Positions 7,899 through 23,989 of a stretch of DNA of 64,000 bases are shown here, one piece after another. Numbering within the stretch: the stretch's first letter is position 1; every line of letters starts with the position of its first letter. The DNA is from Acuticoccus sediminis (GTDB lineage: Bacteria > Pseudomonadota > Alphaproteobacteria > Rhizobiales > Amorphaceae), in assembly GCF_003258595.1 (NCBI RefSeq), contig NZ_QHHQ01000001.1, positions 992,001-1,056,000 on the forward strand, written 5' to 3'. The translations under genes and the position numbers were made by a program. The notes under the pieces are model-generated. The model saw only the letters and a program-made list of their open reading frames with translations. It did no database searches and was not told the origin of the DNA.

Positions 7899-8067
7899 GG
7901 CGTGACCTGTTGAACTTCGAGGTGGGGAGGCATCGCTAAACCCGTGACGGCCGGCAACGGCGGCACGGTTCGGGAGCGGCTGGGCAACCGCTCCAACTAT
8001 GTCGATTTGGGGGCAGCTCCTCGTCCTAAATCCAGCGATTTGAGGGGCGCCAGCGGTGAGAAGCACA

Positions 8068-9198
8068 ATGGACACAAGGACAAAATTGCGGCTCCGCCGC
8101 GAGGTTCAGACCGCCATGCAGTATCTGCGGAGCGGCGAGCTTGAGCACGCCCGCGCGGCCTTCGTCGCGATGGTCGAGGCCAATCCCGACGTGACGCTCG
8201 GGTACATCGGTCTCGGCGAAGTCCATATGCAGGAGGGCGACGTCGAGACGGCGCTCAAGTACTTCCAGGACGCCCTCGAGATCGACCCGCAGTCGACCAT
8301 GGCGCTCAACATGAGCGCCCGCGCCCGCCAGCGTCTCGGCGACATCGACGGCGCCCTCGAGGACTACGAGGAGTCCGGCCAGGTCGATCCGGGCCGGGGC
8401 ACCTCGCAGATCCGCATGAGCCAAATCTTCGCCCGGGAGGGCGACCTCGAGGAGGCGACGAGCCGCCTGCGCGAAGCGCTGAAGCGCAATCCGCAGCAGA
8501 CAGCCGCGCGCTTCATGCTGGCGAGCAACCTCGAGAAGATGGGGGACGTCGCCGGCGCGAAGACCGAGCTCCTGCGCGTTCTCGACACCAATCCCGACAT
8601 GGGCGTCGCCGCCTATCGCCTGTCCCGCCTCTACATTCAGGAGCGTGACTACGCGTCGGCCGAGCCGCTGCTGATGCAGGCCATCGAGCAGGCGCCGGAC
8701 AAGCCCGCCCCCTACGCCACGCTCGGCGCCGTCCTGAAGGCCCAGGGCCACACCCGCGACGCGCTCGACGCCTTCCGGGCCGCGCTGGAGCTGAAGCCAG
8801 GCTCCCAGCCGTTCGCGATGGGCGTCGCCGACTGCCTCTCGGACCTCGGCGAGCATGCCGAGGCGGTGAAGGTGCTGCGCGGCGTGCTGCGTGGCAGCCG
8901 CCGTCCCGCCTTCGTTCACAAGCGCCTGGGCGACACCTACGTCGCGATGGGCAGCTACGAGCAGGCCATCGACGAATATCGCGCCGCGATGCTCGGCGCG
9001 CCCGAGTTCACCGAGACGCATCCGGACCTGACGTCGATGCTCGACGCGCCGGACACGCCGGAGACGAAGGCGCGGAAGGTGCAGGCCTACCTAGCCGACG
9101 CGATGCAGGCGCAACGCGAGGCCGCGCCGGCCGAACGCCGCTTCGCGGGCCTCCGGCGCAACCGAACTCCTCGATCGATCCAAACTACGGGTGCGTAA
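8068..9198 (+). CDS. Tetratricopeptide-repeat protein, first gene of the synthase operon
   Basis: A 376-aa soluble protein made almost wholly of TPR helical hairpins, roughly residues 15-310 (for example ARAAFVAMVEANPDVTLGYIGLGEV, ALKYFQDALEIDPQSTMALNMSARA, ALDAFRAALELKPGSQPFAMGVADC). TPR arrays bind peptides or assemble complexes. There is no signal peptide or membrane segment, so it is cytosolic. The start could be the ATG given or a GTG 12 bases earlier. It is followed 4 bases later by the phosphatase-superfamily gene and then by the synthases on the same strand, so a scaffold or product-handling role for the synthase is a reasonable inference, not shown. Confidence 0.8.
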   Translation: MDTRTKLRLRREVQTAMQYLRSGELEHARAAFVAMVEANPDVTLGYIGLGEVHMQEGDVETALKYFQDALEIDPQSTMALNMSARARQRLGDIDGALEDYEESGQVDPGRGTSQIRMSQIFAREGDLEEATSRLREALKRNPQQTAARFMLASNLEKMGDVAGAKTELLRVLDTNPDMGVAAYRLSRLYIQERDYASAEPLLMQAIEQAPDKPAPYATLGAVLKAQGHTRDALDAFRAALELKPGSQPFAMGVADCLSDLGEHAEAVKVLRGVLRGSRRPAFVHKRLGDTYVAMGSYEQAIDEYRAAMLGAPEFTETHPDLTSMLDAPDTPETKARKVQAYLADAMQAQREAAPAERRFAGLRRNRTPRSIQTTGA

Positions 9199-9202
9199 CC
9201 GA

Positions 9203-10024
9203 ATGCCGCGCAATCTTGTGTTCATGGTCCTCGACAGCTGCCGCTTCGACAGCTTCGTGCGTGCGAAGACCCCGAACTTCGACCGTCTCGGCGAGGCCGA
9301 GAAGCGGTATTCCTACGCCTCGTGGACCGCTCCGTCCCACTACACCTTCACGATGGGCCTCGTGCCTCACAAGAGCCCGCAAGGTGTCTATGCTTCGGAA
9401 GTCTACAAGGAAGACTTCGGCGCGTGGGTCGACCGGCTCGGCATCCCGAACCTGGGGTTCAAGAACTTCATCCCTGAACTGTCGTTGCCCAAGCTTCTGA
9501 AAGATAACGGGTATCGCACCGTCGCGCGCGTCTCGATGCCGGTCCTGAACCCGTTTACCGCCATCAACAAATTCTTCGATGACTACAAGTTGATGTCGAA
9601 CCACAACGATTTTGCCGGTATGGTCAAGGAGATGGAGTTTTCGGCAGACGTGCCGAGCTACTATTTCTTGAACCTGGGCGAGACGCACTATCCCTACATG
9701 CTTTCGGGCGAAAATCTGCCTCACATTTCTGGTGTCCATGGCGCGGTGAAGTCGCTGGCCAAAGGCGGGGACGGCGGCGGCAAGGTCGAGGACGAGTTCT
9801 TCGACGAGGCGATGATGAAGTCGCTTCACGATCAACAGGTTCGGTGTGTCGAGTACGTCGACAATCTGTTTGGTGAACTTCTCGGGAAGGTGCCTGAGGA
9901 CACGTACTTCGTCATCGTCGGCGATCACGGCGAAGCATTTGGCGAAGGCGGGTACTTCGGGCATGGCCCGGTGATGCATGAAATCGCGTTCACCGTGCCG
10001 TTTCTCGAAGGTTTGCGGCCCTAG
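9203..10024 (+). CDS. Cytosolic alkaline-phosphatase/sulfatase-superfamily hydrolase
   Basis: A 273-aa member of the metal-dependent phosphatase/sulfatase fold. Metal-ligand motifs are visible: DSCR near the N-terminus (FMVLDSCRFDSF), a His in GETHYPY, and DHGE with a later GHG (VIVGDHGEAFGEGGYFGHGP). At the nucleophile position, where sulfatases have C-x-P-S-R for formylglycine, this protein has T-A-P-S-H, so a formylglycine sulfatase is unlikely and a Thr-nucleophile phosphatase or phosphotransferase is more likely. No signal peptide and no membrane anchor, unlike most family members. It is short for the family and is less GC-rich than its neighbours, which hints at separate acquisition. 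A GTG 12 bases upstream, overlapping the TPR stop, is an alternative start. Confidence 0.75.
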   Translation: MPRNLVFMVLDSCRFDSFVRAKTPNFDRLGEAEKRYSYASWTAPSHYTFTMGLVPHKSPQGVYASEVYKEDFGAWVDRLGIPNLGFKNFIPELSLPKLLKDNGYRTVARVSMPVLNPFTAINKFFDDYKLMSNHNDFAGMVKEMEFSADVPSYYFLNLGETHYPYMLSGENLPHISGVHGAVKSLAKGGDGGGKVEDEFFDEAMMKSLHDQQVRCVEYVDNLFGELLGKVPEDTYFVIVGDHGEAFGEGGYFGHGPVMHEIAFTVPFLEGLRP

Positions 10025-10081: not shown

Positions 10082-10678
10082 ATGAGCAATTCTGAGGCGG
10101 ACAAGCGGCGGGAGCGCCTGCGGAACCTGCGCGCGATGCGCGGGCAGAGCGGCACCGCGAGCGGGGCCGGGCCGGCGGGCCCGGCGGGCGGCGGAGCGTT
10201 CCGCGAGATGATGCAGCGTCGCCGCGCCGCCAACGGGGCCGCCGGTGACACCGCTGGCCTCGCCGACGGGGCCGGCCTCGGCGCCGGCGCCGGGCGCGGC
10301 GAGTTCCTGCGCCGCGTCATGAACGACAAGGCCGCGGGCGGCCAGGGTGTCGGCGGTCAGGCCGCCGGGGGCGCCGCGGCGCCGGGCCTCGCCGGGCAGG
10401 GGCCCGCGGGCCAGGGCGGTCCGCGCGGCGAGATCCTGCGCCGCATCATCGAGGCGCGCCGTCAGAACCAGGGCGGGGAGCCCGCGGCTGGCGGGACCGA
10501 GGGGCCGCTCGCCGCCCGCGCCCGTCAGGTCCGCGCCCAGCGCGAGAGCGACCTCGAGGCCCGCGTCACCAAGCTCGAGGCGGAGGTCGCGCGTCTGTCC
10601 TCCCTCCTTCCGGCCGACACGGCGGAGCCGCAGCCCGCGGCGGCCGCCGACGAGCCGGCCAAGATCTCCGAAGCATAG
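10082..10678 (+). CDS. Gly/Ala-rich protein with three repeated basic helical motifs and a C-terminal coiled coil
   Basis: A 198-aa protein I do not recognise. A good Shine-Dalgarno (GAGGGGAAGG) fixes the start. It has four parts: a basic N-terminus (SEADKRRERLRNLRAMRG); a low-complexity Gly/Ala/Pro region carrying three similar short basic helices (GGAFREMMQRRRAA at about 39, RGEFLRRVMNDKAA at 74, RGEILRRIIEARRQ at 120); a predicted coiled coil (about 155-180, SDLEARVTKLEAEVARLSSLL); and a disordered acidic tail. No signal peptide. It lies between the phosphatase-superfamily gene and synthase 1, 60 bases ahead of the latter. Repeated short motifs on a flexible chain look like docking sites; a scaffold role is inference. 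Confidence 0.75.
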   Translation: MSNSEADKRRERLRNLRAMRGQSGTASGAGPAGPAGGGAFREMMQRRRAANGAAGDTAGLADGAGLGAGAGRGEFLRRVMNDKAAGGQGVGGQAAGGAAAPGLAGQGPAGQGGPRGEILRRIIEARRQNQGGEPAAGGTEGPLAARARQVRAQRESDLEARVTKLEAEVARLSSLLPADTAEPQPAAAADEPAKISEA

Positions 10679-10738
10679 AACTCGAGCGGGTAGGGCCGGG
10701 TGAACCGCGATCATTCACGTCACAACGGGAGCGCGTCC

Positions 10739-13700
10739 ATGGCGAGCGAGAGCTTTGGGATCATTGCGCTGACACCGGCCGGCCTGCCTGACGCCCGGCT
10801 CGTGTTCGCCGCCGACCGGTCCGGCCATCTCGGGATCCTGAACGCGGAATCCGGCCCCTTCCCGCACGAGGCGATCGCCGCGTTGCGGGGCCGCACCCGC
10901 GCGCCCTTCGGCGTGAAGCTCGGTCCGCTCGACGAGGCGGCCCTCGCGGCCGTCGCCGGCGCCGTGGAGGACGGCCTAGGCTGGCTCGTCGTCGACGCCG
11001 CCGACGTGTTCGCCGACCCCGGGCTCATCGCGGCCGCTATCGCCCTCGGCGTCGAGGTGATCGTCGAGGCGATCGCCTGGGACGACCGCCTGGCCGCCCT
11101 CGAGGGGCACGCCGCGCTGATGGTGAAGGGCCATGAGTGCGGCGGTCTCGTCGGCGAGGAGACCGCGTTCATCCTCATGCAGAAGGCGCTGGCGCGCCAG
11201 TCGGCCCCGGTCTGGGTGCGCGGTGGGATCGGCATGCACTCGGCCTCCGCGGTGCGGGCGGCGGGCGCGGCCGGCGTCGTGCTCGACGACCAGCTTCTGC
11301 TCCTCGCCGAGTCGCCGCTCGCCGAGAAGGCACGCGCCGCGCTGAACGACCTGACCGGGCTCGAGACCGGCCGCGTCATCGCCGGCGCCCGGACGTGGCG
11401 CGTCTTCGAGAAGCCGTCCTTCCGGCACCTGCGTGCCCTGCGGGAGACGATCCGCACCTCCGCGGACGCGGACGCGGAGGCCGTGGTGACGGCCCGGATC
11501 GGCTGGGCGGACCCCGCGGTCGACATCGTCCCGCTCGGCCAGGCAGCCACTTTCGCGGCCCCGTTCGCGGCCAGGTACGTCACCTTCGGGCGCCTCGCCG
11601 CGGCGATGCTCGCCGAGACCGAGGCACGCCTCGACCTCGCGCTCGAGACCGATCCGCTCGGCAGGGACAAGGGCGTCGCCGCGACCCACGGCACCCTGTA
11701 CCCGATCGTCCAGGGCCCGATGACCCGGGTCAGCGACGATGCCGGGTTCGCCCAGGCGGTGGGCGAGGGGGGCGGCCTCCCGATGCTGGCGCTCGCGCTG
11801 ATGCGGCCGGACGCCGTCGAGGCGCTTCTGAAGGATGCGTCGGACCGTCTCGCGGGCAAGCCCTGGGGCCTCGGCCTCCTCGGATTCGCGCCGGCCGAGC
11901 TCGTCGCCGCGCAGGTCGAGGTCGCGCGGCGCTACAATCCGAAGTTCGCCCTCATCGCCGGCGGCCGTCCGGATCAGGCAAAGGCGTTCGAGGACGACGG
12001 CATCGCCACGTACCTCCACGTCCCGTCGCCGCGGCTCCTGACGATGTTCATCGAGCAGGGCGCGAAGAAGTTCGTCCTCGAAGGGCGCGAATGCGGCGGC
12101 CACGTCGGCCCGCTGTCCTCGTTCGTCCTCTGGGACTCGATGGTGACGACGCTCCTCGCCAACGCCGGTACCCCGGAGAAGAACGCGGAGATCCACGTCC
12201 TCTTCGCCGGCGGCATCCACGACGCGCAGTCGGCCGCCGTGGTCTCGGCCATCGCGGCGCCGCTCGCCAAAGCCGGCTTCAAGGTCGGCGTCCTCGTCGG
12301 CACGGCCTACCTCTTCACCAGAGAGATCGTGGAGGCCGGCGCGATCGTGCCGGAATTCCAGAAGACCGCGCTGTCCTGCCGGACCACGCACACGCTGGAG
12401 ACCGGTCCCGGCCACGCCTCGCGCGCCGCCGAAAGCCCCTTCACGGACGAGTTCGAGCGTCGCCGCCGCGAGCTGCAGTCCGGCAACGTCTCCGCCGACG
12501 ACGCGCGCGAGGAGCTCGAGGCGCTGTCGCTCGGCCGCCTGCGCCTCGCCTCCAAGGGGACCGAGCGCGGCGGGCCGAACGGGGATATCCAGGAGGTCCC
12601 GCTGGAGCGCCAGCAGACCGAAGGCATGTACATGATCGGCCAGGTCGCGACGATCCGCGACGCCGTCACCACGGTGGCCGACCTGCACGAGGAGATCTCC
12701 GTCGGCGGCCACGCGCTCCTCGAAGCCGCCCGGGCGCGCCGGACGGAGTCCGCGCTGGAGGCGGCGCGCACCGCGCGCCGCGGCGAGCCGACCGAGATCG
12801 CCATCGTCGGCATGTCCGCGTCCCTGCCGGGCGCCGAGACGGTGAAGGCCTACTGGGAGAACATCCTCGACAAGGTCAACGCCATCTCCGAGGTGCCCGA
12901 GACGCGCTGGGACTGGCGCATCTATTTCGACGAGGACCGCAACGCGCCGGACAAGATCTACTCGCGCTGGGGCGGCTTCTCGAGCGACCTGCTGTTCGAT
13001 CCGCTGAAGTTCGGCATGCCGCCGAACTCCATCCGGTCCGTCGACCCGCTCCAGCTCATGACCCTGGAGCTGGTGCGCCGCTGCCTTGCCGACGCGGGGA
13101 TCGAGTCGGCGCCGGACAGCCGCGAGAAGATGTCCATTATCCTCGGCGCCTCGGGCGGCGCGGGTGACGTCGGCGCCCAGTACGCCGTGCGCTCGGAGAT
13201 GCCGCGCTTCCTCGGCGAGCTGGAGCCCGCGGCGGCCGAGCGCCTGCCGACCTGGACCGAGGACTCGTTCGCCGGCATCCTGCTCAACGTCGCTGCCGGC
13301 CGCTCGGCCAACCGGCTCGACTTCGGCGGCGTCAACTACACGGTGGACGCGGCCTGCGCCTCCTCGCTGACGGCGGTCTACCAGGGCGTTCTGGAGCTCG
13401 AGACCGGGCGGTCCGACTGCGTCATCGCCGGCGGCGTCGACACGGTGCAGGGCCCCTTCGGCTACCTCTGCTTCTCCAAGACGCAGGCGCTGTCGCCGCG
13501 CGGCCGCTGCCGCACGTTCGACTCCACCGCCGACGGCATCGCCATTTCCGAGGGCATCGCCGTCGTCGCGATGAAGCGCCTCGCCGACGCCGAGCGTGAC
13601 GGCGACCGCATCTACGGCGTCATCAAGGGCGTCGCCGGCTCGTCGGACGGGCGCGCGAAGTCGATGACCGCGCCGCATCCGGACGGCCAGATCCGCGCCC

Positions 13701-16700
13701 TCCGCCGCGCCTACGAGATGGCCGGCTACTCGCCGACCACCGTCGGCCTGTTCGAGGCGCACGGCACCGGCACCGTCGCCGGCGACACGGCCGAGCTGGA
13801 GACCGTCTCGCGCGCGCTCAGCGAAGCGGGCGCGGCGGTCGAGGGCGAGCACGCCATCGGTTCGGTGAAGACGCTGATCGGCCACACCAAGGCGGCCGCC
13901 GGCATCTCCGGCCTCATGAAGGCGACGCTCGCCTGCTATCACAAGACGCTGCCGCCGCACGGCTATCTCGACAAGCCGAACGGCAAGCTCAGCGCCGACG
14001 GCGCCCCGCTCTACATCGTCGACGAGGCGCTGCCCTGGCTGGTTCGCGACGGCGAGAAGCGCCGCGCCGGCATCAGCGCCTTCGGCTTCGGCGGCACCAA
14101 CTTCCACGTGACGGTCGAGGAATACGACAGTCTCGCCCCCGCGCCGGCACCGCGCGAGGTGTGGTCGCACGAGCTCCTCGTCTGGCGCGCGCCGGACCGG
14201 GCCGCCCTTGCCGCTGCGGTGAAGCAGACCGCCGACCGCCTCGAGGGCAACAGCCCCGCGGTGCGCGACCTCGCCATGACCCTCGCGCGCAAGCTCCCGG
14301 CCAGGGGCGTGACCGCCTCGCTGGTGGTCGACGGCCGCGCCGACCCGCAGGCCGCCGTCGCCCGGCTCGCCGCCGCGCTCGCCGATCCGGAGGCCGCGAC
14401 CCCGGCCGGCGCCGCATTCAGCGCCGCGCCGCTGCTCGCCTCCGGCAAGACGGCGTTCGTCTTCCCGGGTCAGGGCTCGCAGTACGTCGGAATGTTCCGA
14501 GAGCTGGCGCTCCTCTTCGAGGAAGCCCGGGCGGGACTCGAGGCGGCCGACACGGTGCTCGCCGACGTCATGGCCGGCAAGGGCCTGCCGGGCGGGCGCC
14601 TCAGCCGCGCCGTCTTCGCCCGCGCGCTCTACGATCAGGCCGCGCGCGACAAGGCGCAGTCCCGCCTCACCCGGACCGACATCGCCCAGCCCGCGCTGGG
14701 CGCGGTCGAAACCGGGCTGCTGGCGCTCCTGAAGCGGCTGGGTGTCACCGCCGACATGGCGGCCGGCCACAGCTACGGCGAGTTCGTCGCCCTCTACGCC
14801 GCCGGTGTCCTCGACCTCGGCCAGCTCCTCGAGCTGTCCGAGCTGCGCGGCCGCCTCATGATCGAGGCGGCGGGCGAGGGCGACCTCGGCACGATGGCCG
14901 CCGTCCGCGGCAAGCGGGCCGACATCGAGGCCGCGCTCGCCGGCATCGAGGGTGTGTGGGTCGCCAACCACAACGCTCCGGACCAGACGGTGCTGTCGGG
15001 CACCAGGACCGGGATCGACGCGGCGCTGAAGGCGATGGAGAAGGCCGGCCTCTCCGGCCAGAAGATCACCGTCGGCGCGGCCTTCCACTCACCGATCATC
15101 GCCGAGGCCGGCGCCCGTCTCGCCGAGCATATCGGCGCGATGCGGCTCGCCGCCCCGGCCTTCCCGGTCTACTCGAACACCACCGGCAAGCCGCACGACG
15201 CGGACCCCGCCGGGGTCGCCGCGGCGATGGGCGCGCATCTCGCCAGCTCGGTCGAGTTCGTCGCCGAGATCGAGGCGATGTACGAGGCCGGCGCCCGCGT
15301 CTTCCTGTCGGTCGGGCCGAAGTCGGCGCACGCCAGCATGGTCCGGAAGGTGCTCGGCGACCGCCCCTGCAGGTCGGTGTCGATCGACGACGGGAAGGGC
15401 GGTCTCGAGGGCCTCCTGCGCGCTCTCGGCGCGATGCTCGCCGAGGGAGCCGAGCTGGACCTCGAGCGGCTCTGGCAGGGCCGCGACTGCCGCGCCCTCG
15501 CGACGGACTTCAAGGCGCACGAGCGCCAGCCCGCGCCGGCGAGGCACATGTGGTGGCTGAACGGCAGCGGCGCCCGCCCCGTCGGCGCGCCGCCTCTCCC
15601 GGTCCTCACCCTCGAGGCCGCGGAGGCCGAGCGGGCCGCGCGCGCGTCCGCGCGCACCCTCGCGGCAGACGCGCCGGTCGCTGCGATGAACGGCGCAACG
15701 AACGACGGGGCACATGCCCCGACATCCACCGGGGCGGAGATCCCGGGGCTCAACGGGTCGCATGGCCCGGCAGAAACGTGGGGAGCGGCGCGGTCGGCAT
15801 CCGACTCAACCCAGGAGACTCGCAACAGTGTGACCGCCAGGTCGGCAACGCGCTTGGGCCGCAGAGACACATTGAAAAAGGAGAGAGTTCGAATGGTGGA
15901 TTCGACGCGAACGGCCGCGCAGGACGCGTCGCTCGCCGATTTTCAGGCGACGATGCAGCGCTTCCTGGATGTTCAAGAAGGCGTCATGCTGGCCTACTTC
16001 GGCGGGACGGACGTGTCCGCCGGCACGGCACAGCAGCCGAGCCTCCCGGCCCGCACCCGGCGTGAGCCGATGCGCCTTCCGGCCCGCGGCGACCTGGGCG
16101 GTGCCCGCCCCGGTCCGAGCCGTCTGGCCGCTCCGGCGCCCGCGGCCTACGAGCCCGATCCGGCTCCGGCCCCCGCTCCGATGAGCAACGGCGGCTACGC
16201 CAACGGTCACGACCACGGGCACGGCCTCAACGGCGCGTCGCACAAGGCGAACGGCACCGCCGTCGCCGAGGCGTCACGGCCGGCTCCCGCTCCGGCACCG
16301 GCGCCCGCGCCCGCTCCGGCCCCCGCGCCGGTCGCGGCGGCCCCGGCGAGCGCCGACCTCGGCCGCGCGCAGATCTCCGAGATCCTCCTCGGCGTCGTGG
16401 AGGAGCGCACCGGCTACCCGCGCGACATGCTCGACATGGACCAGAACCTCGAGGCGGACCTCGGCATCGACTCGATCAAGCGGGTCGAGATCGTCGGCGC
16501 GCTCCTCAAGGGCCTGCCGGCCGGCGTGCAGCCGAACGTCGCCGACCTCGGCGAGACGCTCAACGCGCAGAAGACCCTCAACGGCATTCTGGACACCCTC
16601 TCCGAGCGCATCGGGTCGGGTGCGGGGGCCACAGCCCCTTTTGAGTTAACCGAGACGGGCACCTCTTCCCCGGCGGCGACGGCATCCGCCCGTCCGTCTC

Positions 16701-19171
16701 GGTACATTCTCAAGGCCCATGCCGAACCTCTCGGCGCTCCGGCAGCCTTCGCGCTGCCGAAGGGCACCTACCTCGTCAGCGAGGACGCAGGCGGGGTCGC
16801 CCGGACCCTCGTCAGGCTCATCGAGGAGGCCGGCGCCCGGGCCAGACTGATCCCGGCCGACCTCAAGGCGCTGCAGGACGTGACGATCGATCCCGCTTTC
16901 CCGGTGGTCGGATTCGTCCACGCCGCGCCGCTCTCCGCGGCCCGCATGTCGGCCGACAGCGACCCCTCGCAGTGGCGCAACGAGCTGCTGCGCAACGAGC
17001 TCTTTCCCCATCAGGCCCTGCGCGCCTTCGGCAGGTCGCTGTCGGACGGCGGGCGCATCGTCCTCGTCTCCGGTCTCGGCGGACGCTTCGGTCGTGACGG
17101 CCGCGTCAACGCGCTGAAGCTCGAAGGCGGCGGGCCGGGCCTTGCCAAGAGCGTCAAGGAAGAGTGGCCGAACGCCGTCGCCAAGGCGGTCGACCTCGAC
17201 TCCAAGGCTCCGAAGGACGTCAACGCCGCGCTCGTCCTGGACGAGCTGCGCGTGCCCGGCGGGCGCATCGAGGTGGGCTACCCCGAGGCCACCCGCACCG
17301 TCTTCCGCAGCGAGGCCGTCGAGATCGCGGCCGGACCCGACCGCGACGCGCTGCCCGAGGGCGCCGTCGTGATCGCCACCGGCGGCGCGCGCGGCATCAC
17401 CGCGGAGGCGCTCCACGCGCTGGCCCGGCCGGGCGTGACCTTCGTCATCGTCGGCCGCACGCCGCTCCCCGAGCCGGACGCCGACCGCTTCCCCGCCGCC
17501 GGGACGGTGGCCGAGCTGCGTACGGCCATCATCGCCGACGCGAAGGCCCGCAAGGAGCCCGTGAAGCCCGCGCAGGTGGAGCGGATCGTGCGCGCCACAC
17601 AGCGCGACCGCGAGATTCTTGCCAACCTCTCCGAATTCCAGAAGGCCGGCGCGCGGGTCGAGTACCGCATCGCCGACGCGCAGGATCCGAAGGCCATCAC
17701 CCGCATGGTGAAGGACCTCTACGCCACCTTCGGCCGCGTCGACGGCGTCATCCACGGCGCCGGCGTGATCGAGGACCGCCTCCTCGTCGAGAAGGACGCG
17801 GAGAGCTGGCTGCGCGTCGTCGAGACCAAGATCCTCGGCGCCCTCGCCATCGCCCGCGGCCTGGATCCGGCCGGGCTGCGCTTCTTCGTGATGTTCGGTT
17901 CCGTCGCCGGCCGCTACGGCAACGCCGGCCAGTCCGACTACTCGGCCGCCAACGAGCTGCTCAACCGCCTCGCCCTGCAGTTCCGCTCCAAATGGCCGGA
18001 GACGGTCAAGGTCGCGGTGCTCAACTGGGGCCCCTGGGCGGGCACGCGCCACGGCCCGGGCATGGTCTCGGACGAGACGCGCCGCAAGTTCGAGGGCAAG
18101 GGCGTCATCCTTGTCGAGCCGGTCGGCGGTGCCGAGGCCTGCCGCGACGAGATCTTCCGCGGCCCCATCGACGTCGTCGAGGTGGTGCTCGGCGAAGGTC
18201 CGTGGGAGCGCCACGAGACCGACCAGAGCGCGCTTCTCCCCGGTGCGGCGGAGGCCGTCGCCGGCGAGCCGAGCGCCCTGCCGCTCCTGCCCGGCGCCAC
18301 GAACACCGAGGGCCAGCGCGGCGGGCGGCTCGTCACGCGCACGCTCTCGGTCGCGTCCGACCTCTACCTGCCGCAGCACCGCATCGACGGCGTTCCCGTC
18401 CTGCCGATCGCCTGCGCGCTGGAACTCGCGGCCGAGACGGCGGCGATGGTCTGGCCGGGCTGGACCGTGACCGAGGTGTCGGACGTGCGCCTCCTCAAGG
18501 GTCTGCGCCTCGAAGGCGACCGGGACGTGCCCGTCGAGCTGGTGGTTCAGGGCAGCGAGCACGGCGACGCGTCGGGCTTTTCCGCCTCGGTCCGCATCAA
18601 GTCGGCCGGGCCGAAGGGCGCGCCGCACTACAGCGCCGCCGTCCAGCTCGCCGACCGACTGCCCGACGCCGAGACGGTGAGCGACATCATCGACCCGCGC
18701 CCCGCCAGCGTGTCGGCGCGCCAGGCCTACCGCGAGATGTTGTTCCACGGCCCCTGCTTCCAGGCGGTCACGGAGATCGTCGGCCTCGACGAGACCGGCG
18801 TCGTCGCCTCCGTCGAGGGGCGCGGCCCGGCCGAGTTCATGCGCCCCGTCGCGGCGGACGCCGGCTGGCTGTTCGACCCCTCGCTGGTTGACTCCGCCGC
18901 TCAGCTCGCCTGGGTCTGGTCGTGCGTCCACCGCAACGCCCCGGCGCTGCCGAACCGCATCGGGCCGATCCGCCGCTTCGCCGGCGCCGGTCCCGCCGCA
19001 CGCATGGTGCTTCGGGTGCGGGAGGACCCGGCCGCCCCTAACGCCCTCTGTTCGGAGGTGCTCGTGCTCGACGACGACGGCCGCACGGTGATGGTGATCG
19101 ACGAGCTGGAGAGCACGTCGAGCGAGGCGCTCAACCGCTTCCGCGGCTGGAACGGCGACGTGCGCGTCTGA
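10739..19171 (+). CDS. Multidomain type I synthase, PUFA-synthase class: NMO-NMO-KS-AT-ACP-KR-DH
   Basis: About 2810 aa. Order: two tandem nitronate-monooxygenase (PfaD-like enoylreductase) domains (about 5-240 and 320-590; motifs GHECGGLVG and GRECGGHVG); ketosynthase 685-1130 with DAACASS (Cys about 873), EAHGTGT and KTLIGHTKA; malonyl-type acyltransferase 1235-1540 with GHSYGE (Ser about 1345) and AAFHSP; one ACP 1850-1940 with LGIDSIKRVEI (Ser about 1912), the hallmark of PUFA-synthase carriers; ketoreductase 2190-2470 (TGGARGI, Tyr in SDYSAANE); PKS-type dehydratase 2520-2800 with H-x3-G-x4-P (HRIDGVPVLP) and Asp in DPSLVDSAAQ. All catalytic residues are present except that NMO-1 lacks the His of the GGH motif. 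Pro/Ala-rich linkers flank the ACP. Start: ATG with GGGAG upstream; a GTG at 10700 is possible. It would elongate and fully reduce an acyl chain iteratively; the product is unknown. Confidence 0.92.
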   Translation: MASESFGIIALTPAGLPDARLVFAADRSGHLGILNAESGPFPHEAIAALRGRTRAPFGVKLGPLDEAALAAVAGAVEDGLGWLVVDAADVFADPGLIAAAIALGVEVIVEAIAWDDRLAALEGHAALMVKGHECGGLVGEETAFILMQKALARQSAPVWVRGGIGMHSASAVRAAGAAGVVLDDQLLLLAESPLAEKARAALNDLTGLETGRVIAGARTWRVFEKPSFRHLRALRETIRTSADADAEAVVTARIGWADPAVDIVPLGQAATFAAPFAARYVTFGRLAAAMLAETEARLDLALETDPLGRDKGVAATHGTLYPIVQGPMTRVSDDAGFAQAVGEGGGLPMLALALMRPDAVEALLKDASDRLAGKPWGLGLLGFAPAELVAAQVEVARRYNPKFALIAGGRPDQAKAFEDDGIATYLHVPSPRLLTMFIEQGAKKFVLEGRECGGHVGPLSSFVLWDSMVTTLLANAGTPEKNAEIHVLFAGGIHDAQSAAVVSAIAAPLAKAGFKVGVLVGTAYLFTREIVEAGAIVPEFQKTALSCRTTHTLETGPGHASRAAESPFTDEFERRRRELQSGNVSADDAREELEALSLGRLRLASKGTERGGPNGDIQEVPLERQQTEGMYMIGQVATIRDAVTTVADLHEEISVGGHALLEAARARRTESALEAARTARRGEPTEIAIVGMSASLPGAETVKAYWENILDKVNAISEVPETRWDWRIYFDEDRNAPDKIYSRWGGFSSDLLFDPLKFGMPPNSIRSVDPLQLMTLELVRRCLADAGIESAPDSREKMSIILGASGGAGDVGAQYAVRSEMPRFLGELEPAAAERLPTWTEDSFAGILLNVAAGRSANRLDFGGVNYTVDAACASSLTAVYQGVLELETGRSDCVIAGGVDTVQGPFGYLCFSKTQALSPRGRCRTFDSTADGIAISEGIAVVAMKRLADAERDGDRIYGVIKGVAGSSDGRAKSMTAPHPDGQIRALRRAYEMAGYSPTTVGLFEAHGTGTVAGDTAELETVSRALSEAGAAVEGEHAIGSVKTLIGHTKAAAGISGLMKATLACYHKTLPPHGYLDKPNGKLSADGAPLYIVDEALPWLVRDGEKRRAGISAFGFGGTNFHVTVEEYDSLAPAPAPREVWSHELLVWRAPDRAALAAAVKQTADRLEGNSPAVRDLAMTLARKLPARGVTASLVVDGRADPQAAVARLAAALADPEAATPAGAAFSAAPLLASGKTAFVFPGQGSQYVGMFRELALLFEEARAGLEAADTVLADVMAGKGLPGGRLSRAVFARALYDQAARDKAQSRLTRTDIAQPALGAVETGLLALLKRLGVTADMAAGHSYGEFVALYAAGVLDLGQLLELSELRGRLMIEAAGEGDLGTMAAVRGKRADIEAALAGIEGVWVANHNAPDQTVLSGTRTGIDAALKAMEKAGLSGQKITVGAAFHSPIIAEAGARLAEHIGAMRLAAPAFPVYSNTTGKPHDADPAGVAAAMGAHLASSVEFVAEIEAMYEAGARVFLSVGPKSAHASMVRKVLGDRPCRSVSIDDGKGGLEGLLRALGAMLAEGAELDLERLWQGRDCRALATDFKAHERQPAPARHMWWLNGSGARPVGAPPLPVLTLEAAEAERAARASARTLAADAPVAAMNGATNDGAHAPTSTGAEIPGLNGSHGPAETWGAARSASDSTQETRNSVTARSATRLGRRDTLKKERVRMVDSTRTAAQDASLADFQATMQRFLDVQEGVMLAYFGGTDVSAGTAQQPSLPARTRREPMRLPARGDLGGARPGPSRLAAPAPAAYEPDPAPAPAPMSNGGYANGHDHGHGLNGASHKANGTAVAEASRPAPAPAPAPAPAPAPAPVAAAPASADLGRAQISEILLGVVEERTGYPRDMLDMDQNLEADLGIDSIKRVEIVGALLKGLPAGVQPNVADLGETLNAQKTLNGILDTLSERIGSGAGATAPFELTETGTSSPAATASARPSRYILKAHAEPLGAPAAFALPKGTYLVSEDAGGVARTLVRLIEEAGARARLIPADLKALQDVTIDPAFPVVGFVHAAPLSAARMSADSDPSQWRNELLRNELFPHQALRAFGRSLSDGGRIVLVSGLGGRFGRDGRVNALKLEGGGPGLAKSVKEEWPNAVAKAVDLDSKAPKDVNAALVLDELRVPGGRIEVGYPEATRTVFRSEAVEIAAGPDRDALPEGAVVIATGGARGITAEALHALARPGVTFVIVGRTPLPEPDADRFPAAGTVAELRTAIIADAKARKEPVKPAQVERIVRATQRDREILANLSEFQKAGARVEYRIADAQDPKAITRMVKDLYATFGRVDGVIHGAGVIEDRLLVEKDAESWLRVVETKILGALAIARGLDPAGLRFFVMFGSVAGRYGNAGQSDYSAANELLNRLALQFRSKWPETVKVAVLNWGPWAGTRHGPGMVSDETRRKFEGKGVILVEPVGGAEACRDEIFRGPIDVVEVVLGEGPWERHETDQSALLPGAAEAVAGEPSALPLLPGATNTEGQRGGRLVTRTLSVASDLYLPQHRIDGVPVLPIACALELAAETAAMVWPGWTVTEVSDVRLLKGLRLEGDRDVPVELVVQGSEHGDASGFSASVRIKSAGPKGAPHYSAAVQLADRLPDAETVSDIIDPRPASVSARQAYREMLFHGPCFQAVTEIVGLDETGVVASVEGRGPAEFMRPVAADAGWLFDPSLVDSAAQLAWVWSCVHRNAPALPNRIGPIRRFAGAGPAARMVLRVREDPAAPNALCSEVLVLDDDGRTVMVIDELESTSSEALNRFRGWNGDVRV
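15877..15895 (+). promoter_or_regulatory. Internal ribosome-binding site and in-frame ATG inside synthase 1
   Basis: AAAAGGAGAGAG lies 9-10 bases ahead of ATG 15893, in frame with synthase 1. The preceding ~40 codons (GSHGPAETWGAARSASDSTQ...) look like translated intergenic DNA, while the codons after the ATG start a clean domain (MVDSTRTAAQDASLADFQATMQRFL) that resembles a protein N-terminus. Translation from here would give a separate ~1092-aa ACP-KR-DH protein. Confidence 0.55.
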
Positions 19172-19312
19172 CGCGCCGCCGGGCGGCGAGGCGCCGGCCC
19201 CGCCGCCGTCGCGATGGGCGCCACTCCGGACGGCCGGGCCATTCTCAGACGCGGCGACGTCGCCGAGTACGACGGCCGGGCGGCGAACCCTTGAGTGATA
19301 TCGGAGATTTCG

Positions 19313-22300
19313 ATGGCCGACGCTGGCCGGATTGATCGAGCAAGAGACGTTGCCGTCATCGGGATGGGCTGCCTGTTCCCGGGCGCCGACGGTCCCGCCC
19401 AGTTCTGGCAGAACATCTGCGCCAAGTCCGTGCAGATCCGCCAGCCCGTCGAGGCGTGGGAGGCGGACCGCTACCTCGGCTCCGACAGCACGACCCGCAT
19501 CACCACCTCCGCCGGCGGCTTCCTCGGCGACCTGTGCCGGGTCAATCCGGCGTCCCTCGGCATCATGCCGAACTCCGTCGACGGGTCCGAGCCGGACCAG
19601 TTCCTCGCCCTCAAGGTCGCCCGCGACGCGCTCGCCGACGCCGGCTACCTCGACGGCTACGACCACGAGACGACCGGCATCATCCTCGGCCACTCGACGT
19701 ACCTGCACCGGGGCAACGCGAACGTGGTGCAGCACGGCGTCGTGCTCGACCAGACCGTCGGCCTGCTGCGCGACCTCCTGCCCGGGGTGTCGGAGGACGC
19801 GCTCGCGCGGATGCGGGAGGTCCTCCTCGACCACCTGCCGCCGTTCAACGCCGGCACCGCGCCGGGCCTCGTGCCGAACGTCATGACCGGGCGCATCGCC
19901 AACAGGCTCGACCTGCGCGGCCCCAACTACATCCTGGACGCGGCGTGCTCCTCCTCGCTGCTCGCCGTCTTGTCGGCGGTCGAGGAGCTGCGCGCGGGGC
20001 GCAGCGATCTCATGATCGCCGGCGGCGCGAACGGCGCGATCCCGGCGGAGGTGAACATGGTGTTCACCCAGCTCGACGCGCTGTCGAAGTCCTCCACCGT
20101 CATGCCGTTCTCGGAGGATGCGGACGGCACGCTCCTCTCGGAGGGCGTCGGCGCCATCGTCCTGAAGCGCTACGCCGACGCGGTGCGGGACGGGGACAAC
20201 ATCTACGCCGTCGTCAAGGGCCTCGGCCAGTCGTCGGACGGCAAGGGATCCGGCCTCCTCGCGCCGCGCCTCGAGGGCGAGATCGCCGCGATCCGCCGCG
20301 CGTACAAGGACGCCGGCGTGTCGCCGGACACGATCGGCCTCATTGAGGCGCACGGCACCGGCATCCCGCTCGGCGACCAGACCGAGGTGTCGGCGCTGCG
20401 CGAGGTCTTCGGTGCCAGGCGCAAGGCGGTGCCGGAGATCGCGCTCGGCGCGCTGAAGTCGCTCATCGGCCACTGCATCCCCGCCGCCGGCATCGCCGCG
20501 CTCATCAAGACGACGCTGGCGCTCCATCACCGCACACTGCCGCCGACGGTGTGCACCGAGGTCAACACCACGATCGGCCTCGGCGAGAGCCGCCTCTACG
20601 TCAACACCGAGACCCGGCCCTGGATCCAGCCTCGCAACGCGCCCCGCCGGGCCGGCGTCAACGCCTTCGGCTTCGGCGGCATCAATTCGCACGCCGTGCT
20701 GGAGGAGGCGCCCGAGTCCGAGGCGAACCCGCCGCGCCCGGCCTTCTGGCCCGTCGAGCTGATGGTCCTCGCCGGAGAGACGCGCGACGGGCTGGTCGCC
20801 GCCATCAGGGAGCTGGAGGCCGCCGTCGCCGGGCCACTCAAGGGCGAGCCGCTCGGCGGCATCGCCAAGGGGCTGGCCGAACGGTACGGCAATGTCGGCC
20901 CCGTGCGGGTCGCGATCGTCGCCACCAGCACAGACGAGCTCGCCGACCGCCTCGCCAAGGCGCGGGAGCGCATCGAGGGGGGCCGCGCCCGCTTCCAGGT
21001 CCGCTCCGGCATCTACGGCTCGGACGGCGACGGGCACGGCAAGGTGGCCTTCGTCTTCCCGGGCGAAGGGGCGCAATACCAGTCGATGCTGGCCGAGATC
21101 CTCGGCCCCTTTCCCGAGGCGCGCCGCTGGTTCGACTTCTGGGACGGCCTCTACGGCGATGCCCGCGGTTTCCGGCCGTCGGAAGCCGTCTATCCGCCGC
21201 CGACCCTCCTCGCCTCCGACACCAAGGCGGAGTTGGACCGCGCCCTCTTCGGCCTGGAGATGGGCTCGGAGTCGGCGTTCATCGCGAGCCGGGCCCTCTC
21301 CGCCGTCGCCGCGCGGCTGGGGCTGAAGCCGGACTGCGTCGTCGGCCACTCTTCCGGCGAGCACGCCGCGCTCTACGAGGCGAAGGTCCTCGGCGCGTCG
21401 GGCTGGGACGAGCTGGAGAGCCGCATCCGCGAGCTGAACACGCTCTACAAGGCCATCGAGGACTCGACGACCATCTCCGGCGGTGCGCTTCTCACCATCG
21501 GCGGCCTCGCCCGCGAGAAGGTCCACGCGCTGGCGGGCGCCGCCGAGGACGTCCACGTCGCGCTCGACAACTGCCCGCAGCAGACCGTCCTCTACGGCCA
21601 GCGCACCGAACTCGACAAGATCGTCGCCGAGGCGGGCAAGGAGTCCGCGCTGTGTGCCTTCCTGCCGTTCGACCGGCCGTACCACACCTCGCTCTTCGCC
21701 CCGGTCGCGGAGATGGTGGAGGGGATCTACGCGCAGCTCGACTTCGCCGCGCCGCGGATGCCGGTCTACTCCTGCGCCAGTGCGGCGCCGATGCCGGAGA
21801 CGCCGGAGGAGATCCGCAAGCTCGCTGCCCTCCAGTGGCAGAGCAAGGTGCGCTTCACCGAGACGGTGGAGCGCATGTACGCGGACGGCGTGCGCACTTT
21901 CATCGAGCTCGGCCCGTCGGCCAACCTCACCGGGTTCATCGAGAACACGCTCCAGGGCAAGGACGTGCTGGCCGTCGCCTTCGGCAGCCGCCGCCGCTCC
22001 AGCCTGGTGCAGCTCATGCACAGCCTGGCGCGCCTGTGGGTCGGCGGGGTGCCGGTCGAGGTGGGCGCCCTGTTCGAGGGGCGCCGCTTCGGCCCGTCCG
22101 ACGTCGTCGGCGACCGTGCCAAGCGGCGGCCGGAGACGGTCATCTCCAACACGCTGCCGATCATCCGCCTTCCCGAGGACAAGATCGCCGAGCTGCGGGC
22201 GGCGATGTTCCCGGCCGGCCCGCCGCAGGCCGTGGAGGCTCCGACCGAGGCGCCTGCGGCCGAGGACGTTGTCGCGCCGGCCGAGCACCCGGCCGTCTCG

Positions 22301-23989
22301 CGCCCGCCGGCCGGCGCCTACCCGTTCCTGCAGCGCATCGGCGTCAACGACGGGCGCCGCCTCGTCGCCGAGTGCGACCTCGCCCTTGCGGCCGACGCGT
22401 TCCTGCGCCACCACGTCCTCTACGCGATGGAGGTCTCCGACCTCGACCGGGACCTCTGCGCGCTTCCGGTGGTGCCGCTCGCGGTCACCATGGAGATGAT
22501 GGCGGAGGCGGGTGTCGCCCTGACCGACGGCCTCGCGCCGGTCCGGCTCGAGAAGGTTCGCGCCTACAACTGGGTCTCGCTCGACGAGGGTGCCCGCACC
22601 ATCGGCATCGAGGCGACGCGCCTCGCCGACCGCGAGAATGACGCGGTGGTCGTCGTTCGGGTGGTCGACGCGCTCGGCGGACCGCTGGTGGAGGGCACCG
22701 TCGTCCTCTCCACGTCACCGGCGGTGCCGGGTGACGTCGCCATCACGCCGCTGGCCGAGCCGCAATGGCCGCTGTGGTCGGACGAGCAGCTCTACCGGAC
22801 GGGGATGTTCCACGGTCCGCTCTTCCAGGGCGTCGCGAGCCTCCATTCATGGGACGACACCGGCCTCGACGCGATCCTCGCCGACACGCCGCTCGACGGC
22901 TTCTTCCGCGACGGGGAGCGGCCGCGGCTGGTCCTGAACCCGGCGCTGCTCGACCAGGTCGGGCACGTCACTGCCTTCTGGATCGCGCAGGGGATGGGGA
23001 CGGACTTCTCGTCCTTCCCCTCGCGGATCGACCTGATCGAGCTGTTCGACGCCGGCCGGGAGGATACGGCGGGGGCGATCATGTCCGGCCGCCTCGGCTT
23101 CGAGGAGGGCGAGGGCGGCACGAACTACCTCCGGGGCGATTTCGTCTGCATCGGCGCGGGCGGCGAGCCGCTGCTCCGCGTGACGGGCTGGCACGACCGC
23201 TTCTTCGACGTGCCGCACAACTACTACCGCGCCCGCTGGCAGCCGCGGGACGAGTTCTACGGCTACGAGGTGTCGGACCTGTTCGCGGAGCTTCCCGATG
23301 GGGCGGTGGTGTGGCAGGTGCCGGCGTTCCCGGCCGGATTCCTCGACGATGCCGGTGGGATCTGGCGTCGCGTCCTGGCGCATACGGTGCTCTCCGGCGA
23401 CGAGCGGGCGGAATGGGCGACCTTCGCCGGCAAGCCGAGGCGGGCCGACGAGTGGCTCCTCGGCCGCGTCGCCATGAAGGAGGCGGCGCGCGGCTGGTTC
23501 ATGCGCCACCTCGACATGGGGGTGCTGCCGGCCGACATCATCATCCGCGTCGACGCCGACGGGAAGCCGTACATCGACCCCGAGGGCCTAGCGATCCTCG
23601 GCGCGGTGCCGGAGATCTCCGTGGCGCACGTCGCGGGCGAGACGGTCGCCGTCGCCGCGCCCCCGGGCGTGCCGGTGGGGATCGACCTCGAGGTCCTCGG
23701 GCGGGCGCAGCCGGCCGACATCATGACCGGCGGCTTCTCCGACGCGGAGCGGCAGTACATGAACGAGATGGGCGCCTGCGGCGAGGTGGACGTCCTCCTT
23801 GCGTGGTGCGCCAAGGAGGCCGCGGCCAAGTGCCTGGGCACCGGGCTCAACGGACAGCCGACGGCCTTCGCGCTCATGATGCTCGACCCGGCCGGCGGCG
23901 CGGCTGCGATCGCGGCTCCCGACGGCTCGGAGGTCGAGATCTGCCTCGGCATGGCCGACCGCGCGGTGCTGGCCGTGGCCTACCTCTGA
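19313..23989 (+). CDS. Multidomain type I synthase partner: KS-AT-DH-phosphopantetheinyl transferase
   Basis: 1558 aa; ATG chosen for GGAG 6 bases upstream, an in-frame GTG 18 bases earlier is less likely. Ketosynthase 1-460 with DAACSSS (Cys about 212), EAHGTG and KSLIGHCIPAAG, so it is a catalytic KS, not a chain-length factor. Acyltransferase about 575-890 with FPGEGAQY, GHSSGE (Ser about 680) and PYHTSLF. PKS-type double-hotdog dehydratase about 1000-1330, with a His in LRHHVLY and Asp in NPALLDQVGH. C-terminal 4'-phosphopantetheinyl transferase about 1365-1558 with GIDLEVLG and WCAKEAAAKCLGTGL, both metal- and CoA-binding motifs intact. The transferase presumably activates the single ACP of synthase 1 in trans, the job PfaE does in PUFA operons. 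It contains no ACP or KR, so it must act with synthase 1. Confidence 0.92.
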   Translation: MADAGRIDRARDVAVIGMGCLFPGADGPAQFWQNICAKSVQIRQPVEAWEADRYLGSDSTTRITTSAGGFLGDLCRVNPASLGIMPNSVDGSEPDQFLALKVARDALADAGYLDGYDHETTGIILGHSTYLHRGNANVVQHGVVLDQTVGLLRDLLPGVSEDALARMREVLLDHLPPFNAGTAPGLVPNVMTGRIANRLDLRGPNYILDAACSSSLLAVLSAVEELRAGRSDLMIAGGANGAIPAEVNMVFTQLDALSKSSTVMPFSEDADGTLLSEGVGAIVLKRYADAVRDGDNIYAVVKGLGQSSDGKGSGLLAPRLEGEIAAIRRAYKDAGVSPDTIGLIEAHGTGIPLGDQTEVSALREVFGARRKAVPEIALGALKSLIGHCIPAAGIAALIKTTLALHHRTLPPTVCTEVNTTIGLGESRLYVNTETRPWIQPRNAPRRAGVNAFGFGGINSHAVLEEAPESEANPPRPAFWPVELMVLAGETRDGLVAAIRELEAAVAGPLKGEPLGGIAKGLAERYGNVGPVRVAIVATSTDELADRLAKARERIEGGRARFQVRSGIYGSDGDGHGKVAFVFPGEGAQYQSMLAEILGPFPEARRWFDFWDGLYGDARGFRPSEAVYPPPTLLASDTKAELDRALFGLEMGSESAFIASRALSAVAARLGLKPDCVVGHSSGEHAALYEAKVLGASGWDELESRIRELNTLYKAIEDSTTISGGALLTIGGLAREKVHALAGAAEDVHVALDNCPQQTVLYGQRTELDKIVAEAGKESALCAFLPFDRPYHTSLFAPVAEMVEGIYAQLDFAAPRMPVYSCASAAPMPETPEEIRKLAALQWQSKVRFTETVERMYADGVRTFIELGPSANLTGFIENTLQGKDVLAVAFGSRRRSSLVQLMHSLARLWVGGVPVEVGALFEGRRFGPSDVVGDRAKRRPETVISNTLPIIRLPEDKIAELRAAMFPAGPPQAVEAPTEAPAAEDVVAPAEHPAVSRPPAGAYPFLQRIGVNDGRRLVAECDLALAADAFLRHHVLYAMEVSDLDRDLCALPVVPLAVTMEMMAEAGVALTDGLAPVRLEKVRAYNWVSLDEGARTIGIEATRLADRENDAVVVVRVVDALGGPLVEGTVVLSTSPAVPGDVAITPLAEPQWPLWSDEQLYRTGMFHGPLFQGVASLHSWDDTGLDAILADTPLDGFFRDGERPRLVLNPALLDQVGHVTAFWIAQGMGTDFSSFPSRIDLIELFDAGREDTAGAIMSGRLGFEEGEGGTNYLRGDFVCIGAGGEPLLRVTGWHDRFFDVPHNYYRARWQPRDEFYGYEVSDLFAELPDGAVVWQVPAFPAGFLDDAGGIWRRVLAHTVLSGDERAEWATFAGKPRRADEWLLGRVAMKEAARGWFMRHLDMGVLPADIIIRVDADGKPYIDPEGLAILGAVPEISVAHVAGETVAVAAPPGVPVGIDLEVLGRAQPADIMTGGFSDAERQYMNEMGACGEVDVLLAWCAKEAAAKCLGTGLNGQPTAFALMMLDPAGGAAAIAAPDGSEVEICLGMADRAVLAVAYL

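Follow-up and report, generated by a model that had tools for sequence, protein, structure and literature searches.

What kind of chain is built, and what is then made of it, by two large adjacent genes on the forward strand of a stretch of the Acuticoccus sediminis genome (C1:992001-1056000, 64,000 nucleotides of a 7.76-Mb, 44-contig assembly with a GC fraction of 0.70; "the window" means this whole stretch)? The genes encode proteins A and B, which an earlier note, made from the sequence alone, had taken for a self-activating synthase of the polyunsaturated fatty acid (PUFA) type with a new division of domains. The reading we favor, at a probability of roughly 0.55, is that A and B form an iterative type I secondary-lipid synthase whose chain is moved to a discrete acyl carrier protein (ACP), tailored with sulfation, and exported. 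On our best reading the pair is kin to the chain synthases of PUFA, heterocyst-glycolipid and alkylresorcinol pathways, yet belongs to a distinct group.

Relatives were collected by scanning an alignment of the second nitronate monooxygenase-type domain (NMO2) and the ketosynthase (KS) against a collection of genomes from 84,980 species, which gave at least 543. The best 80, many of them metagenome bins, are loci L021-L100; because they are the best-scoring of the at least 543, frequencies among them are not valid for the whole family. Architecture counts refer to these 80 and the window (81 loci) and use profiles built from the same loci.

Domain organization of proteins A and B

The domain orders read in the earlier note were borne out by Pfam, an AlphaFold model and the family alignment. 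They are listed here with the family rows that carry each catalytic residue (AT, acyltransferase; KR, ketoreductase; DH, dehydratase; ER, enoyl reductase; PPTase, phosphopantetheinyl transferase; PKS, polyketide synthase).

10700..19171, + strand: protein A, NMO1-NMO2-KS-AT-ACP-KR-DH; open frame of 2823 aa, start GTG at 10700 or ATG at 10739
10757..11653, + strand: NMO1, pseudo-ER without the catalytic His (AlphaFold model)
11684..12700, + strand: NMO2, FabK-like ER with ECGGH (PF03060, TIGR03151; FabK in Foldseek)
12794..14284, + strand: KS of A (PF00109, PF02801, PF16197; Cys in 86/86 rows)
14456..15349, + strand: AT of A (PF00698; Ser in 81/81)
16385..16549, + strand: single ACP domain (PF00550, 27.0 bits, one stretch; Ser in 73/73)
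17366..18040, + strand: KR (PF08659, 115.5 bits; Tyr in 66/66 rows with a letter)
18281..19132, + strand: PKS-type double hot-dog DH of A (PF21089, PF14765; His in 43/44, Asp in 44/44)
19295..23989, + strand: protein B, KS2-AT2-DH-PPTase; open frame of 1564 aa
19343..20824, + strand: KS of B (ketoacyl-synt; Cys in 50/54, Ser in 4)
21050..21961, + strand: AT of B (Acyl_transf_1; Ser in 60/60)
22337..23191, start estimated, + strand: second PKS-type DH (PF14765, 37.6 bits; PF21089, 14.3 bits, below cut-off)
23315..23986, start estimated, + strand: PPTase domain (PF01648, 46.6 bits; P1a and P1b' by motif scan)

Pfam scored protein A at 58.9 bits for NMO, 204.9 for ketoacyl-synt, 136.9 for Acyl_transf_1 and 25.3 for PP-binding (one stretch), and its C-terminal part at 115.5 for KR, 45.5 for PKS_DH_N and 53.1 for PS-DH; the scores of protein B were 175.4 (ketoacyl-synt), 66.8 (Acyl_transf_1), 34.6 (PS-DH) and 43.7 (ACPS). 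With TIGR02813, the PfaA-like KS-AT model, A scored 1030.3 bits, over the cut-off of 1010.1, in agreement with the proposal of a PUFA-related iterative synthase, and B remained below it at 512.9. The catalytic motifs claimed for both KS, both AT, the ACP, the KR, the first DH and NMO2 were all present by motif reading and in the family alignment: in A these are KS C886, AT GHS, ACP GIDS, the KR Tyr, DH HRIDGVPVLP with D/Q, and NMO2 ECGGH, and in B they are KS2 C218 and AT GHS.

As had been proposed, both dehydratases are of the PKS type. They match PS-DH, and the FabA-type family PF07977 had no match in A or B even when the DH pieces were searched separately at E up to 10. The second DH keeps the family His in 53/53 rows and the Asp in 50/50 rows with a letter, while Pfam recognizes its N-terminal half only weakly. 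When the AT-KR linker of A was searched in separate pieces at E up to 10, Pfam gave one PP-binding match and no second. These searches rule out a hidden FabA domain or an extra ACP within the two proteins. The claim of only one ACP therefore stands for A and B; it does not stand for the genome, which encodes an ACP-like protein elsewhere (C1:175411-175695).

Because its active-site Cys is present, KS2 of B is not a chain-length factor; with Cys retained in both KS, such a factor is excluded from B, in line with what had been noticed before. The ER and the PPTase are indeed fused into the two proteins, as the NMO domains of A and the ACPS/PF01648 domain of B. The latter has P1a (by a loose pattern) and P1b' but neither P0 nor P1b, and P1b' occurs in 38 of 42 PPTase domains examined. 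In passages of PMC3098273, P1b' is assigned to synthase types M, N, O, P, R, S and T, and P1b to types A-D, F, I and L. Self-activation of the synthase is plausible. Since the dehydratases are PKS-type, no chain-length factor is present, and ER and PPTase are fused, an omega-3 PUFA is an unlikely product, as had been suspected.

A conserved inactive reductase domain beside an active one

Pfam marks one NMO domain in A, and the reading of two domains comes from the AlphaFold model and the family alignment. The model of residues 14-667 (pLDDT 94.5, pTM 0.94, 42 sequences) has strand-helix repeats in each half, and the top Foldseek matches were nitronate monooxygenase and FabK structures, from E 2.6e-20. 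FabK was matched at E 2.8e-19 and TMt 0.84, compared to E 4.1e-9 and TMt 0.49 for PfaD; FabX, a dehydrogenase/isomerase, was also matched (E 8.2e-13), more weakly than FabK. In NCBIfam, which we take to contain a PfaD model, the FabK model TIGR03151 was the only match of the NMO region in 4/4 members tested, below its cut-off (104.7 bits in A). A PfaD-like ER is ruled out by these two comparisons.

According to part of PMC13311796, the motif III histidine has been proposed as catalytic in such ER domains, which act as homodimers, with a thraustochytrid heterodimer also reported. This histidine is kept in 86/86 NMO2 domains and is absent from 81 of the 82 NMO1 domains with a letter at that position. 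With His in 1/82 NMO1 versus 86/86 NMO2, NMO1 is a conserved pseudo-reductase and, by analogy with these dimers, is probably a built-in dimer partner of NMO2. With a dead and a live domain in one chain, the pair lends itself well to finding out why a second barrel is needed by flavin enoyl reductases.

The architecture recurs in several phyla

Protein A is complete in 56 of the 81 loci, where 38 have the order NMO1-NMO2-KS-AT-ACPn-KR-DH, 11 are without DH, six stop after the ACPs and one stops after KS. One ACP is present in 35 of these 56, two to six in 20 and none in one. The order KS2-AT2-DH-PPTase is found in 27 of 35 complete AT2-bearing proteins. Both proteins are complete in 32 loci. 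Among these the order of the window recurs in 17 others, from several phyla, which makes 18 with the window counted, 14 of them with a single ACP; the A-type DH match is weak (28-34 bits) in three of the 18 (L049, L054, L094). An architecture unique to the A. sediminis genome is refuted by the 17 other loci. A new division of domains, as proposed in the earlier note, is not supported either, and the division is already in print in outline: fused pfaDA and pfaBC-PPTase genes are described in passages of PMC13291983. What is added here is the conserved dead NMO1 beside a live NMO2, the shared tailoring genes of the relatives, and the dispersed sites in the A. sediminis genome.

The distribution of the pair is patchy. 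Thirteen phylum labels occur over the best 80 relatives, with 42 from Pseudomonadota and two unlabelled, and the closest relative among the matches listed is Bosea sp. 117 (70% identity). Of other genomes of the window's order, 0 of 60 sampled gave a match at E 1e-150; of other genomes of the class, 5 of 384 matched B at 1e-100, with 33-37% identity.

The KS tree, a quick maximum-likelihood tree of 105 rows with some long branches, in which the labels of the reference rows come from their architecture, not from products, clusters the KS of A with those of Bosea, an uncultured Rhodobacteraceae and Frigidibacter (support 99). It lies within a 47-row group (SH-aLRT 99) of 40 A-type rows, two type-P-like, two SC52-like, one Streptomyces and two second-system rows, and nine Pfa/Hgl-like rows (99) stand beside this group. 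The B-type KS form one side of a branch with support 70. The tree, which had been suggested as a check, thus places A inside no family with a known product and near type P.

Several related systems differ from the pair or accompany it. Stagnimonas (L173) and Solimonas (L174) have a second two-protein system besides the main pair, with A-type frames of 2525 and 2380 aa and B-type frames of 1487 and 1480 aa; in the tree its KS clusters with that of a system from a Streptomyces plasmid. Streptomyces sp. NBC_01243 has, on a large linear plasmid, a two-protein relative (L017:7994-22968) followed by an ACP, an alpha/beta hydrolase, a glycosyltransferase and a methyltransferase. Two loci are from the anammox genus Candidatus Brocadia, L061 with the same synthase and L072 with one whose B is shortened. 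In L018 and L014/L016 (Rhodobacteraceae SC52, G295) the B-type protein is AT-DH-PPTase behind an N-terminal stretch in which the KS2 profile found no match, and erosion of the KS is possible there. A. sediminis itself encodes another large KS-AT protein (L001, C8:63486, open frame of 2439 aa), distant in the KS tree. Fischerella muscicola has separate PfaA-like genes over the cut-off in addition to the A-B pair, so the two kinds of system coexist.

Tailoring genes recur near the pair in relatives

Genes near the pair were grouped by single linkage (clusters c0-c92). A hydrolase of about 270 aa of the alkaline phosphatase (AP) superfamily, like that at 9191-10024 of the window, occurs near A-B in 26 loci including the window. 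A 535-aa Phosphodiest protein is found in 23 loci, HlyD fusions in 18, an esterase-like protein in 13, and a tetratricopeptide repeat (TPR) protein in 10 including the window. Two totals are mixtures: c0 (27 loci), because one fused protein joins small ACP-like proteins with sulfotransferases, and c1 (26 loci), because fused proteins join alpha/beta hydrolases with beta-propellers.

Two counts included all loci with enough flank. In 23 loci the sequence continues for at least 420 bp beyond B; the adjoining gene encodes an ACP-like protein in 17 of them, and in 12 of those the gene after it is a phosphodiesterase or c1-type hydrolase gene. A phosphodiesterase lay within 700 bp after B in 9 of the 23. 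The ACP-like identity comes from a conserved SID motif, a sub-cut-off Pfam match and the way in which the Streptomyces gene is labelled. On the 5' side of A, 51 loci offer 8.5 kb or more, and 9 of these have a sulfotransferase there, compared to about 0.4 expected from the density of 16 genomes; the estimate presumes uniform placement and independent loci, assumptions that the kinship of the genomes breaks. The sulfotransferase family PF13469 had a match within 20 kb of the pair in 12 of 16 genomes, a figure biased upward because the 20 genomes were chosen after neighbors had been seen (G387, G393, G402 and G404 were not searched). Among control genomes, 2 of 14 had a PF13469 match.

The Bosea cluster includes an adenosine phosphosulfate (APS) kinase/GTPase protein of the CysNC type, preceded by a PF01507 protein read as CysD from its position. 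CysD- and CysNC-like genes occur together in four loci, Bosea and near L028, L032 and L044. Neptuniibacter encodes a fusion of an ACP-like domain with a sulfotransferase. The model of a propeller homolog (L025) was of moderate quality (pLDDT 68.4, 4 sequences), and no function is assignable to the propeller because Foldseek yields only general beta-propellers.

Homologs of the tailoring genes in the A. sediminis genome

Homologs of these genes are found at two sites on the same contig, 0.8 and 0.7 Mb from the pair (SDR, short-chain dehydrogenase/reductase).

C1:169348-181394: site 1, phosphodiesterase, alpha/beta hydrolase, two SDRs, beta-propeller, ACP-like protein and HlyD protein
C1:175411-175695: the ACP-like protein of site 1, PP-binding 18.8 bits, just under the cut-off of 20.8
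C1:1731497-1735822: site 2, two sulfotransferases, an esterase-like gene and a second propeller

Identities at site 1 are 59% for the phosphodiesterase (to Frigidibacter), 40% for the hydrolase, which has GHSFG, 46 and 62% for the SDRs, 66% for the propeller, 60% for the ACP-like protein and 49% for HlyD. The gene order is that of Frigidibacter minus two genes and with the last gene inverted. That with the HlyD domain (L151:1122-6395, C1:176121-181394) encodes 1758 aa, the domain being C-terminal, with a long low-complexity stretch that contains EAT repeats. At site 2, one sulfotransferase is 50% and the propeller 54% identical to Bosea, and the two genes are arranged as in Bosea. The propeller has two matches genome-wide, exactly at sites 1 and 2, and the phosphodiesterase has one.

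A PDB search with one site-2 sulfotransferase (E up to 0.001) matched only 4gox (1.1e-14), by its entry a polyketide-synthase sulfotransferase and, we presume, that of an olefin synthase, and the CurM sulfotransferase 4gbm (1.4e-12). The phosphodiesterase of the genome gave no PDB match at E 0.001.

Genes adjoining the pair in the window

8056..9198, + strand: TPR-repeat protein (Pfam TPR families; cluster c6, 10 loci including the window)
9191..10024, + strand: compact AP-superfamily hydrolase of sulfatase fold (PF00884, 42.7 bits; cluster c2, 26 loci including the window)
10082..10678, + strand: Arg/Gly/Ala-rich low-complexity protein of 198 aa, with repeated short LR-rich units and no family over the Pfam cut-off

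TPR homologs lie near A in several relatives, although TPR similarity can be unspecific. The hydrolase is the single match of its kind in the genome and scored 60.1 bits with NF038075, below the cut-off of 250; its PDB matches were all to a sulfatase and weak (3 sequences, best E 0.0044). Formylglycine sulfatases have the motif C-x-P-S-R with Cys or Ser. At this putative formylglycine position the hydrolase family has Thr, within T-[AS]-P-S-H, in 24/24 rows with letters. Proteins resembling that at 10082-10678 sit directly 5' of A in L021, L024, L025 and L047, and it is perhaps a scaffold.

Downstream of B lie genes for an EamA transporter and for potassium transport, and apart from one glycosyltransferase the scanned neighbors overall serve transport and housekeeping. 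Pfam scans of the neighbors found no tailoring enzyme adjoining A-B other than the AP-superfamily hydrolase. A type III PKS query had no match in window positions 1-40000; over all loci searched it matched three open reading frames, all in two type-P-like plasmid loci.

What the pathway may make

From the domains, their conservation and the genes that recur around them, we infer the chemistry of the chain, a role of the dispersed genes for A and B, and sulfation. The PPTase of B would arm the ACP of A, and the two KS-AT pairs would extend a long chain with malonyl units. The KR, the two PKS-type DHs and the FabK-like flavin reductase NMO2, with its dead partner NMO1, would leave the chain mostly saturated or trans-unsaturated. 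It could then be handed to the discrete ACP and tailored by the alpha/beta hydrolase, the SDRs, the AP-superfamily hydrolases and the sulfotransferases, with the HlyD-type adaptor serving export. The sulfate may be kept as a head group, or it may act as a leaving group that yields a terminal alkene, as in curacin and olefin synthases; the latter mechanism is given in passages of PMC3903477.

A number of observations weigh against this pathway of ACP relay, sulfation and export. There is no sulfotransferase match within the window, and none upstream of A in 42 of the 51 flanks (downstream was not covered for most). Four of the 16 genomes (G396, G399, G400, G401) had no sulfotransferase within 20 kb by Pfam at 1e-5, although a profile of our own does find one near the pair of G399 (L071). 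The 16 loci in which the linkage was seen belong to Pseudomonadota, apart from a single cyanobacterium and a single bin of Bacteroidota. Because the A. sediminis genome has 11 sulfotransferase matches, their mere presence is not telling; of the seven whose surroundings were inspected, only the pair at C1:1.73 Mb lies among pathway homologs. Genes that share a contig at distances of 0.7-0.8 Mb need not share a pathway. The ACP-like proteins stand weakly in Pfam, with no match in one and 18.8 against 20.8 bits in another. The hydrolase at 9191-10024 is ruled out as a formylglycine sulfatase, since Thr replaces Cys or Ser. Finally, we know of no product for any member with this architecture.

The likeliest of the alternatives is sulfation-assisted decarboxylation, in which a beta-hydroxyacyl chain on the discrete ACP would be sulfated by the CurM/Ols-like sulfotransferase and the alpha/beta hydrolase would release a long terminal alkene with loss of CO2 and sulfate. 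The exclusive PDB matches to 4gox and the CurM enzyme, the ACP-sulfotransferase fusion of Neptuniibacter and the GHSFG hydrolase at the other site all suit it, as does the mechanism outlined in PMC3903477. However, few such sulfotransferase structures exist, so that a nearest match is weak evidence; the hydrolase best matches esterases, with no entry named CurM among the 60 of 345 matches listed; an exporter and two AP-superfamily hydrolases better fit a polar exported lipid; and many relatives have no sulfotransferase nearby. We regard this outcome as unlikely. Somewhat less likely still is a chain made for a larger molecule, passed to phenolic lipid, polyketide or peptide assembly as with ArsABCD or in hybrid clusters. 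Beijerinckia pBIND02, taken as a type P cluster, does combine NMO1-NMO2-KS-AT-ACP-ACP-KR with two type III PKS and a DH-PPTase, and fused pfaDA/pfaBC-PPTase genes occur with PKS and nonribosomal peptide synthetase (NRPS) genes in the excerpted text of PMC13291983; on the other hand, type III PKS matches fall, among the loci searched, in the two plasmid loci alone, with none in window positions 1-40000, and the window's scanned neighbors are of the transport and housekeeping kind with a lone glycosyltransferase.

It could also be supposed that A and B simply make a membrane or storage fatty acid in the PUFA manner and that the tailoring neighbors of the relatives are coincidental. The TIGR02813 match of A would agree with this, and so would the AP-superfamily hydrolase being the sole tailoring enzyme found adjoining the pair in the window; but those neighbors are conserved across phyla, and a FabA-type isomerase, a PfaD-type ER and a chain-length factor are all missing, which leaves this explanation improbable.

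We therefore retain the secondary-lipid synthase with ACP relay, sulfation and export as the preferred reading. The occurrence of the pair in many unrelated bacteria, in part of them near genes for sulfate addition, marks it as a widespread lipid factory instead of a one-off. A wider proposal, which we make only tentatively, places the pair at the center of a large family of pathways, as yet undescribed, for long-chain lipids that are sulfated (or sulfate-released). The synthase of such a family, found so far under 13 phylum labels, would contain the dead/live ER pair and relay its chain to a discrete ACP, on which a CurM-like sulfotransferase would sulfate it (a linkage so far seen in Pseudomonadota, one cyanobacterium and one bin of Bacteroidota). 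Two AP-superfamily hydrolases of the Thr type, a beta-propeller as partner and a HlyD-type exporter would complete the set. If this is true, the cell surface would carry sulfolipids or very long alkenes of a new class. The value lies in the recurring tailoring genes: sulfotransferase, phosphoadenosine phosphosulfate (PAPS) genes, ACP-like protein and exporter turn an "unknown lipid" into a runnable test.

Relation to known systems

Twenty types of secondary-lipid synthase, 14 of them without a product, are distinguished in PMC3098273, as far as its excerpted text goes. In the wide sense of Shulse and Allen, such a synthase has one or more KS, ACP and KR within a pfa-like cluster, and so does the pair. 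With canonical Pfa systems (types A/B) protein A shares a KS-AT over the TIGR02813 cut-off and a KR after the ACP, whereas tandem ACPs, a chain-length factor, a FabA-type dehydratase/isomerase, a PfaD-type ER, a free PPTase and the P0 and P1b motifs are missing from A-B.

Types M (Renibacterium, Frankia, Streptomyces avermitilis) and O (Dinoroseobacter, Gloeobacter, Parvularcula) of Shulse and Allen 2011 were compared by description only. In passages of PMC13291983, the fused pfaDA and pfaBC-PPTase genes of Aquimarina and Flavobacterium are likened to the Renibacterium cluster of 2011, and pfaBC genes without a chain-length factor are described from cyanobacteria. The P1a and P1b' motifs of B are as given for types M-T, and the relatives of A-B include Paracoccaceae and a Gloeobacterales genome.

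Curacin CurM and the cyanobacterial Ols synthases share with the A-B pathway a similar sulfotransferase and, among the tailoring genes, an ACP-like protein and an alpha/beta hydrolase. Here, in contrast, the sulfotransferase is not fused to a PKS module, the chain comes from A and B, and sulfotransferase and hydrolase are at separate sites; CurM and Ols have sulfotransferase and thioesterase in or beside the PKS module, and the pathway-like sulfotransferases of A. sediminis lie 0.7 Mb from the pair. Among the literature matches listed, judged largely by titles, counts and the starts of abstracts, we found none linking PUFA-type synthases to sulfotransferases. Nearest was the Swf PKS/fatty acid synthase of sponge symbionts (PMC3908369, in the sections bearing on it), also a type I system linked to a sulfotransferase, in which a retained sulfate is weighed against a leaving group. 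Its architecture is another one, SwfA being KS-AT-DH-ER-KR-ACP with a reductase-sulfotransferase protein, SwfB.

Type P (ArsA/ArsD of Azotobacter, Beijerinckia indica) is close, a likeness read from the Beijerinckia and Methylosinus plasmid loci (L019, L020). These share NMO1-NMO2-KS-AT-ACP(s)-KR in one protein, a DH-PPTase protein, and a KS within the same 47-row group. They differ in having a type III PKS and in being without the A-type DH and without KS2-AT2, which in the window is part of protein B.

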